Of a stretch of 45,797 bases of DNA, positions 4,875 to 9,056 are shown in pieces; within the stretch, counting starts at the first letter, position 1, and each line of letters begins with the position of its first letter. Source of the DNA: Alkalibacterium sp. (GTDB taxonomy: Bacteria; Bacillota; Bacilli; Lactobacillales; Carnobacteriaceae_A); assembly GCA_007692455.1 (NCBI GenBank), contig RECC01000057.1, positions 1 to 45,797 of the forward strand. Direction: 5' to 3'. The position numbers and the translations under genes were made by a program. The notes below the pieces were generated by a model. That model was given only the letters and a program-made list of their open reading frames with translations. It was not told the origin of the DNA and did not search any database.

Positions 4875-4972
4875 AGTTCAACAACACCTTTCTTGTAACG
4901 TGTTTATACTATCAGTATACTAAAGATTAAGTTTTTTAAAAAAGATAACGGCTAATGCTATAAAAAAAGTGT

Positions 4973-5002
4973 TTGACAAGCTCTCTCCATCCGTGCTAGT
5001 AT
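4973..5002 (+). promoter_or_regulatory. Promoter of the cysteine operon
   Basis: A perfect -35 TTGACA (4973-4978), an 18-bp spacer and TAGTAT (4997-5002). Transcription would start near 5009, leaving a leader of about 260 nt before mccA. Confidence 0.75.
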
Positions 5003-5046
5003 CAGAGAGAAATAAAGACAATAAAGTATTCAAGGAGTGCTGCAGT

Positions 5047-5163
5047 GTGATCAAGTCATTTTCAGAGAAGCAAATGGAGTGTTGCTGTACAAACGTACAG
5101 TTTATTTCTCATGCTCTCAAAAATGTTCTTGCCTATTCAGTGCCCGACTTAAAAACTGTCTAA
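5047..5163 (+). CDS. Predicted cysteine leader peptide (38 aa)
   Basis: A short ORF from GTG 5047 with AAGGAG at 5032-5037 (9 nt spacing), ending at TAA 5161-5163. Residues 12-14 are three consecutive cysteines (codons TGT TGC TGT, 5080-5088), a striking choice just upstream of cysteine-synthesis genes. The frame extends upstream to an ATG at 4969, but that ATG lies before the promoter and cannot be on this transcript. An internal ATG at 5074 (two codons before the cysteines) is a weaker alternative start. I interpret it as a sensing peptide whose translation reports Cys-tRNA supply, not as a functional protein. The role is inferred from position and RNA pairing. Confidence 0.7.
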   Translation: MIKSFSEKQMECCCTNVQFISHALKNVLAYSVPDLKTV

Positions 5164-5245
5164 TTAACTAGATTGACGGGTTGCTTTATTGATGAAGAAT
5201 AACTTTGCAGTGAGCGCATGAGGAGAAATCCTTGTGCGCTTTTTT
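5065..5245 (+). promoter_or_regulatory. Predicted ribosome-mediated cysteine attenuator
   Basis: Three competing structures are visible. (1) A pause hairpin: GAGAA (5065-5069) with TTCTC (5106-5110), and CTGTAC (5085-5090) with GTACAG (5095-5100). Its 5' arm contains the Cys codons. (2) An antiterminator: 5105-5118 pairs with 5212-5225 at 13 of 14 positions, two of them G-U. (3) A terminator using 5213-5224 as its 5' arm. A ribosome stalled at the Cys codons would leave 5105-5118 free to pair with the terminator arm, so transcription continues. With ample cysteine the hairpin and terminator form. No T-box sequence is seen. Confidence 0.7.
5213..5245 (+). terminator. Attenuator terminator before mccA
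   Basis: A 12-bp uninterrupted stem (5213-5224 with 5229-5240, two G-U pairs) closed by a GAAA tetraloop and followed by TTTTT. It lies between the leader ORF and mccA, inside the transcribed leader, which is what a regulated terminator requires. Confidence 0.9.
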
Positions 5246-5268
5246 AGTTGAAGAAAAATAGGAAAGGA

Positions 5269-7349
<2,081 letters not shown>

Positions 7350-7367: not shown

Positions 7368-7916
7368 ATGAAAGCATTCAGAGATTTCATTAAGACATAT
7401 AAAAAAAATGATCCCGCCGCAAGAACAACGCTGGAAATTGTACTGACATACCCTGGAGTATGGGCAGTAGGTTACCATAGGGTGGCCCATTATCTGTATC
7501 ATTACAATTTCAAGTTAGTGGCACGAATGCTTTCAATGTTTGCCCGCTGGCTGACCGGGATTGAAATCCATCCAGGCGCAACTGTGGGTAGACGGTTATT
7601 CATCGACCATGGCATGGGTGTCGTCATAGGTGAAACAGCAGTGATTGGCGACGATGTCATTATTTTCCACGGGGTCACATTAGGAGGCAGGGGAGATGAG
7701 ACAGGCAAGCGTCATCCCACTGTTGAGGATGGTGTGCTCCTATCTGCCCACGCTCAGATAATCGGTAACGTGACTATTGGTAAACAGGCAAAAATAGGAG
7801 CGAACGCTGTTGTATTAAACGATATTCCAGAAGGTGTCACAGCTGTCGGAATCCCGGCGAAAATTGTGAAAACCAGACAAGAAAATGAGCAGTCTTTACC
7901 TGCTGATGAGGAGTAA
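7368..7916 (+). CDS. cysE: Serine O-acetyltransferase CysE
   Basis: Acetylates serine with acetyl-CoA to give O-acetylserine, the acceptor used by MccA two genes upstream. The 182-aa protein has a short helical N-terminus and a C-terminal left-handed beta-helix of hexapeptide repeats, with FIDHGMGVVIGETAVIG around residues 75-91 and GGRGDETGKRHPT around 105-117. The long N-terminal domain of enterobacterial CysE is absent, as is usual in Firmicutes. GGGAG lies 7 nt before the ATG. Placing it in the same transcript makes the operon self-sufficient for its acetyl-serine substrate. Confidence 0.95.
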   Translation: MKAFRDFIKTYKKNDPAARTTLEIVLTYPGVWAVGYHRVAHYLYHYNFKLVARMLSMFARWLTGIEIHPGATVGRRLFIDHGMGVVIGETAVIGDDVIIFHGVTLGGRGDETGKRHPTVEDGVLLSAHAQIIGNVTIGKQAKIGANAVVLNDIPEGVTAVGIPAKIVKTRQENEQSLPADEE

Positions 7917-7920
7917 ACGT

Positions 7921-8562
7921 ATGGGAAGAGAATTTTTAACGGTCTTCAGGGATTGGGCTGAAGACTATGATGCTGTTGTATCAGGTGGGGACCAGCAGTA
8001 TCTTGATGTGTTTGAGAACTATGATGAAATTTTGGACAAAATAGTGTCATTATCAGGTGAATCAGTCATCGAGTTTGGTGTAGGGACCGGCAACTTAACC
8101 GGCAGGTTGATTTTAGCAGGTAAAGAGGTATGGGGTATTGAGCCGTCAATTGAAATGAGACGAGTGGCGGAAGAGAAGCTTCCTGCTCATGTAACAGTTG
8201 TGGATGGAGACATGCAGAGCTTTTCAGTACCGCCATATCGAGTGGATACTCTAGTCAGTTCATACGTGTTCCATCATTTAACGGATAATGAGAAGAAAAC
8301 TGTTTTGAAAGACTATGCGGCACTTTTGATAAACGGAGGTAAGATAGTTTTTGCCGATACGTTGTTTATTTCGGAAGAAGAAAAAGCTAAACTGATAGGC
8401 AGTTATCCTAATCAAGACTACCCTGATTTGATAGATGACTTGAACCGGGAGTATTATCCTTATATGTCAACGGTCTACGATGGACTTAAAGAGGCAGGTT
8501 TCAAGAAAATCGGTTTTAGTCAAATGAACAAGTTCGTTTGGATGATAGAAGCAGAAATCTAA
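7921..8562 (+). CDS. yrrT: YrrT-like SAM-dependent methyltransferase
   Basis: A class I methyltransferase of 213 aa with motif [11 protein letters not shown] (51-60) and the YrrT-type N-terminus MGREF...[10 protein letters not shown] 7921 is used because GAGGAG sits 8 nt upstream; an in-frame ATG at 7885 lacks a ribosome site and would overlap cysE. In B. subtilis, from memory, yrrT heads the mtnN-mccA-mccB operon, so this gene belongs with SAM recycling. Its methyl acceptor is not known to me. Confidence 0.85.
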
Positions 8563-8585: not shown

Positions 8586-9056
8586 ATGACAGAGAAAACA
8601 ATGAACGTAGAAAGCTTTAATCTGGACCACACGAAAGTCAAAGCGCCCTATGTAAGGGTAGCGGACAGAAAATCTGGAAGTAATGGTGATCTGATTGTTA
8701 AGTACGATCTCCGTTTTTGCCAGCCGAATAAGGAACATATGGACTCAATGGCTCTGCATTCACTTGAGCATATGACAGCAGAACACATCCGCAATCATGC
8801 TGACTATGTAGTGGATTTCGGACCGATGGGCTGTCAGACAGGTTTTTACCTGACTGTTTTGAATCACGATAATTATGATGAGATTCTAAGTGTTATAGAA
8901 AAAACGATGGAGGATATTCTTGTAGCGGATGAAGTGCCGGCAAGCAATGAAAAACAATGCGGCTGGGCAGCTCATCACACCTTAGAAGGAGCAAAGGAAG
9001 TTGCTCAGAAGTTTCTGGATAAAAAAGATGAATGGTCTGTTGTGTTCGCAGACTAA
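8586..9056 (+). CDS. luxS: S-ribosylhomocysteine lyase LuxS
   Basis: Splits S-ribosylhomocysteine into homocysteine and DPD, the precursor of autoinducer-2. The 156-aa protein shows the metal site H58, H62 (HSLEH) and C125 (CGWAAHH), with catalytic E61 and C83 (MGCQTG). ATG 8586 follows AAGGAGAAG. Its homocysteine product is the substrate of MccA, so the operon forms a path from SAM by-product to cysteine. The Pfs/MtnN nucleosidase that makes S-ribosylhomocysteine is not in the window. Confidence 0.97.

Follow-up and report, generated by a model that had tools for sequence, protein, structure and literature searches.

A probable cysteine-responsive, ribosome-mediated attenuator upstream of a cysteine operon in Alkalibacterium, with likely relatives across the Lactobacillales

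In the trp, his and leu attenuators of Enterobacteria, a leader open reading frame (ORF) with codons for the regulated amino acid precedes an intrinsic terminator, and the transcript can form 1:2, 2:3 and 3:4 pairings. Among Firmicutes, Rli60 of Listeria monocytogenes is described as a ribosome-mediated attenuator for branched-chain amino acids that was tested by mutation (PMC5864092), and histidine leader peptides have been proposed in Bacilli and other Firmicutes (PMC2965389, PMC9413887). Runs of Cys codons are known from the polycysteine upstream ORFs (uORFs) of Actinobacteria, which lie upstream of cys or cbs genes and, as far as the available description goes, have no conserved terminator hairpins (PMC1262725); a later study, judging from its title and from text that cites it, deals with leaderless ORFs and translation attenuation (Canestrari 2020). 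None of the matches listed in the open-access literature described a leader-peptide attenuator for cysteine in a Firmicute. In L. paracasei FAM18149, expression of the operon cysK2-ctl1-cysE2 was higher when cysteine was left out of the medium than when methionine was (log2 2.9 for cysE2), a comparison of two starvation media and not with cysteine excess (Wuthrich et al. 2018, PMC6004538). The available parts of that paper report high coverage of the 5′-UTR, a Rho-independent terminator, no T-box, and premature termination by a mechanism “yet to be discovered”.

Here we analysed a stretch of 45,797 nt (the window) from Alkalibacterium sp., contig RECC01000057.1 of assembly GCA_007692455.1, which comprises 96 contigs and 2.05 Mb. 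Its positions 5009-5247 very probably constitute a cysteine-responsive, ribosome-mediated transcription attenuator, a reading to which we assign a probability of about 0.9. It builds on the following elements, of which the promoter, AAGGAG, GTG 5047, Cys codons 12-14 and terminator were already named in an initial annotation of this DNA and are all present in the sequence:

4973-5002, forward strand: sigma-70-type promoter, TTGACA at 4973-4978, an 18-nt spacer and TAGTAT at 4997-5002 (sequence, and alignment with six other members of the genus).
5032-5037, forward strand: Shine-Dalgarno (SD) sequence AAGGAG of the leader ORF (sequence).
5047-5163, forward strand: leader ORF with GTG start at 5047, 38 codons, peptide MIKSFSEKQMECCCTNVQFISHALKNVLAYSVPDLKTV and TAA stop at 5161-5163 (sequence and family comparison).
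5056-5072, forward strand: segment 1, partner of 5112-5126 (folding and structure counts in the family).
5080-5088, forward strand: three Cys codons, TGT TGC TGT, codons 12-14 (invariant in seven genus members).
5085-5100, forward strand: small hairpin CUGUAC/GUACAG over the last Cys codons, arms 5085-5090 and 5095-5100 (folding).
5105-5126, forward strand: segment 2, with 5112-5126 as arm of the 1:2 hairpin and 5105-5119 as arm of the antiterminator (folding and comparison).
5211-5225, forward strand: segment 3, partner of 5105-5119 in the antiterminator or 5′ arm of the terminator (complementarity).
5213-5245, forward strand: intrinsic terminator with a 12-bp stem (5213-5224/5229-5240), a GAAA loop and a U-run to 5245 (sequence and folding).

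Behind these elements follow five genes, whose order is the same in the window and in all ten relatives fetched:

5278-6213, forward strand: gene of the CBS/cysteine-synthase family (mccA-like), with a probable CTG start after AAAGGAG at 5263-5269; below the NCBIfam cysK cut-off.
6210-7349, forward strand: mccB, cystathionine gamma-lyase/homocysteine desulfhydrase family; NF005810 above cut-off.
7368-7916, forward strand: cysE/epsC, serine O-acetyltransferase; NCBIfam model above cut-off.
7885-8562, forward strand: SAM-dependent methyltransferase ORF (yrrT-like), named yrrT in the initial annotation; no model above its cut-off.
8586-9056, forward strand: luxS, S-ribosylhomocysteine lyase; NF002604 above cut-off.

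The CBS-like gene has an apparent CTG start in the window (5263-5280); the family relatives read carry ATG or TTG there.

With the enterobacterial attenuators the locus shares the leader ORF with codons for the regulated amino acid, the 1:2, 2:3 and 3:4 pairings and the intrinsic terminator; it differs in the amino acid, cysteine, and in that the ORF contains the whole of segment 2, whose distance to the stop is 15-43 nt in the genus. The likeness to Rli60, one of design and drawn from descriptions, consists of the Firmicute host, the leader peptide and the terminator/antiterminator pair, whereas Rli60 has branched-chain codons and ilv-leu genes (PMC5864092). Firmicute His leaders, as described, also combine a leader carrying an amino acid run with a terminator, but with His codons, in front of his or hisS genes and in other lineages (PMC2965389, PMC9413887). 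The actinobacterial uORFs have a Cys-codon run before cys or cbs genes in common with the window (PMC1262725), which appears to differ from them by an SD-led ORF and an intrinsic terminator. The leaderless ORF without terminator hairpin that characterizes the mycobacterial uORFs is not what we found, with an SD before the GTG and a terminator in the window. The cysK2-ctl1-cysE2 operon of L. paracasei resembles the window in its homologous first gene, its terminator and a Cys-Cys-Cys leader, the last of which was found in this analysis; it differs in having three genes and no luxS, and the accessible text of PMC6004538 mentions no leader peptide. We rate the mechanism as one of a known kind: the amino acid cysteine and the lineage, in combination with an intrinsic terminator, appear to be new, while the logic is the same.

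Having both an SD and a start codon, the leader ORF is predicted to be translated. Its Cys run consists of codons for the amino acid that the operon makes, the intrinsic terminator lies between leader ORF and operon, and a mutually exclusive antiterminator uses the terminator arm, the last of these in all groups except the enterococcal-type one described below. We infer the following course of initiation, stalling, termination and readthrough in the cell. RNA polymerase would start near 5009, a 5′ end placed by means of the promoter, and a ribosome would begin the leader ORF at GTG 5047. If Cys-tRNA is scarce, the ribosome would stall at codons 12-14 with its footprint over most of segment 1 (5056-5072), and because most of segment 1 is then covered, segment 2 would be free to pair with segment 3 (5105-5119/5211-5225). 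This pairing would block the terminator, and the cysteine operon, with its genes for making cysteine from methionine, would be transcribed. With plentiful cysteine the ribosome would pass the Cys codons, segment 2 would be covered or refolded with segment 1, segment 3 would pair with segment 4, and transcription would end near 5245, leaving an RNA of ~240 nt.

The initial annotation had pointed to complementarity between 5105-5118 and 5212-5225, which was borne out at the slightly larger extent of 5105-5119/5211-5225, where 14 of 15 positions pair, two of them as G-U, with one mismatch. It had also placed a competing hairpin at 5065-5110. Such a hairpin does enclose the Cys codons, but that extent is too small: the structure consists of the 5056-5072/5112-5126 stem plus the small hairpin 5085-5090/5095-5100. 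The leader of 242 nt folds with -72.6 kcal/mol (z -4.36), and none of 200 shuffled sequences was equally stable. The best duplex between the segment behind the Cys run and the terminator arm (RNAduplex) reached p 0.02 against shuffles in the window leader and p ≤ 0.05 in 20 of 68 leaders, a count whose rows include related leaders.

Within the genus Alkalibacterium, 7 of 12 genomes, the window's included, have a close CBS orthologue, and in all seven a leader with GTG start and Cys codons 12-14 lies directly upstream of it; the other five (G001, G003, G006, G008, G011) are without close CBS gene and without leader. The TTGACA is invariant and the -10 element similar in an alignment with the six other genus members. 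The position of the pairing segment inside the leader ORF, which had been regarded as a deviation, turned out to be general in the genus and no oddity of the window: the stop follows 15-16 nt past segment 2 in four of the seven members and 40-43 nt past it in three. In Marinilactibacillus, four of five genomes carry the leader, with a TTG start and Cys from codon 12. The reading as a cysteine-responsive attenuator had been made to depend on conservation in relatives, and it withstood this comparison and was supported by it: leader ORF, Cys codons and terminator are kept in 11/11 genomes of the family that have a close CBS gene (seven Alkalibacterium, four Marinilactibacillus), and a Cys run with terminator is found in 70/81 genomes of the order. 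Six further loci from the genus and family searches (L026, L027, L032-L035) were judged by eye to be unrelated.

In the 11 family genomes, the GTG or TTG start stands at the same place. Behind the Cys run, the frame of Alkalibacterium MB6 and of the four Marinilactibacillus differs from the window type, and the RNA segment around CAUGC stays despite this frame change, which suggests that the leader peptide itself is not the conserved thing in the family. Across the 11 leaders, 91.3% of cells in the 1:2 hairpin, the small hairpin and the terminator are paired, and two-sided compensatory changes occur at four pairs, three in the 1:2 hairpin and one in the terminator (shuffle mean 1.1; 2/500 shuffles as high). 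Of the 14 pairs in the 1:2 hairpin, just 8-9 are present in the four Marinilactibacillus leaders. For the antiterminator, 89.1% of cells are paired, with no two-sided change among these 11 leaders. Of the alternative pairings originally proposed, both are thus largely kept, with two-sided changes in the 1:2 hairpin and terminator inside the family, and in the antiterminator only across lineages.

In about 400-840 nt of sequence before each of 150 CBS relatives, a set in which some occur twice, we looked for SD-led ORFs of ≤ 60 codons with three Cys in five codons. The first ORF scan matched in 61/150 regions vs 0-6 in ten Markov controls; two of the matches (L060, L086) were judged spurious, and the leader ORFs of L165 and L167 were assigned by hand. 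A close CBS gene occurs in 81 of 395 genomes of the order, and 70 of these 81 have a short consecutive-Cys ORF and an intrinsic terminator. Outside the window's family, a consecutive-Cys, SD-led ORF followed by a terminator was found in 59/70 genomes (CCC in 43/70), and a triple run of any residue other than Cys in 0-2 of the same 70 regions. The eleven misses comprise L146-L148 (one family), L194 with a single Cys, and L202-L208, which are the weakest CBS matches and probably paralogs. The last ~180 nt of L194 (genome G390) hold an enterococcal-like leader with the single Cys (VCWTMVRKK) in which a hairpin and a terminator-like stretch are kept. Altogether, 69 leader regions were scanned for a terminator; 68 have one, and the exception is a spurious leader.

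Among 80 named loci, the Cys leader was found in 14/14 from Lactobacillales and in 0/66 from other groups, mostly Bacillaceae by title, with membership of the order assigned from the record titles and the Bacillota MAG L098 counted among the 66. The named and order-genome sets overlap in nine of the 14 (six family loci, L053, L112 and L119), and 14/14 and 70/81 are not independent. The positives spread over six families of the order (f1, which is the window's, f2, f3, f7, f8 and f9). Counted from the first SD-linked start, the Cys run begins at codon 10-15 in 74 of 76 leaders and at codon 12 in 36; these 76 are the 59 and 11 above plus two from Floricoccus, one from L. plantarum and three from plasmid records, with L053, L158 and L212 dropped as duplicates of L142, L112 and L157, and L060 as spurious. 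The records of L. rhamnosus KF7, L. fermentum DR9 and E. faecalis IDRL-9065 have the same leader design. In the E. faecalis record (L212:3274-3411), the Cys leader is annotated as hypothetical protein WP_002355203.1. A covariance model built on the leader (R1, E ≤ 0.05) matched only 13/395 genomes of the order, of which 11 are f1 members and two (L036, L037) look like coding sequence and were judged false; a second model of six pairs (R2) was set aside. The sequence model R1 misses the wider family, which the ORF-plus-terminator scan recovers. A record titled Helicobacter sp. NHP21005 (L077:2501-3415) encodes a CBS protein that shares 62% identity with that of the window, on a par with the Bacillaceae proteins; no Cys leader was found upstream of its gene, which is a possible case of transfer.

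To compare the alternative pairing across lineages, we determined for each leader the score of the best helix, one mismatch being allowed, between the 50 nt behind the Cys run and its own terminator 5′ arm. Leaders were grouped by motif into f1 and f2, an enterococcal type (n=29; 28 from f3 and one from f8) and a group of Lactobacillaceae and others that takes in f3, f7, f8 and Floricoccus leaders. Over 35 deduplicated leaders, the own arm beats permuted arms with z 8.1 (0/5000). The signal is found in the Lactobacillaceae and others (z 6.0, 0/5000) and in the eight leaders of f1 and f2 (z 2.8, 16/5000); in the eight enterococcal-type leaders the own arm does no better than permuted ones (z -0.8). 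In the Lactobacillaceae and others, the helix begins 3-9 nt behind the Cys run in 16/19 deduplicated leaders vs 113/342 with swapped arms, and segments and arms of different sequence are complementary to each other, such as CACGUUUUCGAU/AUCGAAGGCGUG, CGCGUUUU/AAAACGCG, CGCGUUUUUGG/CUAAGGGCGCG, GUGUCAAUU/AAUUGACAC and UUGCAUCUUUUGCA/UGCAAAGGGUGCAG. An anchored comparison of 11 f1 with seven f2 leaders yielded two-sided changes (U-A/C-G and U-G/A-U/C-G), with 3/5000 permutations as good, related rows included. In the enterococcal type, the hairpins and terminator have six pairs with two-sided change (1/500 shuffles as high). In 27/28 leaders of this type, 6-7 of 7 positions match between a leader motif CUAUUAA and the terminator loop UUAAUAG; both are lost together in L157, the E. 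faecalis type. This candidate pairing is suggestive only, as its near invariance makes it uninformative.

The effect of the ribosome was modelled on a transcript ending at the terminator apex, which was folded with a ribosome footprint of 30 nt; this is a thermodynamic calculation that ignores folding rates. In this model, a stall masks segment 1 and favours the antiterminator: the window's terminator arm is held upstream with a probability of 0.90 if the ribosome occupies the first Cys codon, compared with 0.55 in the absence of a ribosome and 0.48 when it stands at the stop. When the ribosome slides along the leader, the value is 0.86-0.91 for A-site codons 3-16; beyond these it lies at 0.48-0.75, apart from codon 30, where it climbs to 0.88. 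The same step is seen in the family mean. The Cys codons are therefore predicted to be the last group before the switch and not the sole workable stall site; the model is not Cys-specific. Of 200 shuffled leaders, seven reach the real stalled value, two the real gain, and a single one combines a stalled value of 0.85 with a gain of 0.3. Mean values are 0.87 stalled, 0.69 at the stop and 0.58 free in f1, and 0.81, 0.64 and 0.47 in f2. With a stall at the first Cys codon, the stalled value exceeds the ribosome-free one in 10/11 f1 and 6/7 f2 leaders, in 16/29 other leaders, and in only 3/29 of the enterococcal type. A contrast of more than 0.05 between a third-Cys stall and the ribosome at the stop is absent in 7 of the 18 f1 and f2 leaders, one of them reversed; in the other 29 leaders, the third-Cys stall is lower than the at-stop value in 16 and higher in three.

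CymR controls the corresponding pathway in Bacillus. The terminator might accordingly be real and control be exerted by something else, be it a CymR-like repressor at the promoter, Rho or an antisense RNA, with the attenuator weak or vestigial here. The L. paracasei operon does have a reported antisense RNA at its 3′ end (PMC6004538). Against this, every element is kept in the window leader, and its predicted stall contrast is among the larger ones of the family (0.90 vs 0.48-0.55); we consider this alternative very unlikely. A ribosome effect on translation, with the SD of the first gene being sequestered as reported for the mycobacterial Cys uORFs, might be argued from the M. smegmatis Cys genes, which are cited as being under translation attenuation. 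In the window, the 3′ hairpin has a U-run and ends 17 nt before the SD of the gene (5245 vs 5263), so that this SD would not be masked, and such a terminator is found in nearly every leader region scanned; control of translation in place of termination thus appears highly improbable.

Cysteine T-boxes are known in Firmicutes, including one at a transporter operon of L. paracasei (PMC6004538), and a T-box or a metabolite riboswitch could control the operon, with the Cys-rich ORF being incidental. At gathering score, however, Rfam found nothing in the leader, the only match in the window being a tRNA at 1-70, and under permissive settings the region 4950-5290 yielded three matches, all scoring far short of their gathering thresholds. 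Neither the window leader nor 40 related loci, 11 of them without Cys leader, had an Rfam match at gathering score or a match to the T-box covariance model, and according to the accessible part of the paper by Wuthrich et al., the L. paracasei operon has no T-box before it (PMC6004538). Considering also that Cys runs in these leaders are specific and widespread, we regard such an RNA element as exceedingly improbable. The idea that the attenuator replaced a T-box is likewise unsupported, as the 20 of the 66 non-Lactobacillales loci that were searched with Rfam were equally without match. CCC-x-CC patterns in the leaders of Marinilactibacillus and f2, and the protein annotation of the E. faecalis version, would suit a functional Cys-rich microprotein that binds metal or serves redox functions, the hairpin being only its terminator. 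It is mainly the Cys run and its position that are kept (codon 10-15 in 74/76), while the rest of the peptide varies; the RNA pairing covaries; and the change of frame after the Cys run led us to reject a functional microprotein. We give this explanation next to no probability.

Returning to the ribosome-mediated attenuator, the published RNA-Seq of L. paracasei would, by analogy, provide the best outside support for a response to cysteine (PMC6004538). Upstream of the operon on plasmid pFAM18149.25 we found an ORF preceded by an SD, MMSQSMFNAINCCCRTTRFWRCSAC (the start may also be the second Met), followed by the terminator for which PMC6004538 quotes a palindrome. This leader and operon lie between two insertion-sequence transposase genes (L209:1959-2888 and 6299-7086) on a plasmid typed as mobilizable, and therefore could move together. 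We consider it likely that reverse transsulfuration in Lactobacillales is under the control of an ancient, order-wide family of cysteine-responsive attenuators, in which an architecture of SD, Cys run near codon 12, closely following pairing segment and terminator has been retained while the pairing sequences were rewritten between lineages, and that this family constitutes the missing mechanism for the plasmid-borne cysK2-ctl1-cysE2 of cheese lactobacilli.

The finding thereby offers a concrete and testable mechanism for the regulation in L. paracasei that had been left “yet to be discovered” (PMC6004538). Few leader-peptide attenuators are described in Firmicutes, and to these it adds one for cysteine, equipped with an intrinsic terminator. 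Since the Cys leader occurs in six families of the order and at none of the 66 other named loci, it should be possible to trace where it arose and which control came before it. Further leader peptides may hide among hypothetical-protein annotations such as WP_002355203.1. In the window's family, the operon includes luxS, and hence the enzyme of autoinducer-2 would be under cysteine control.
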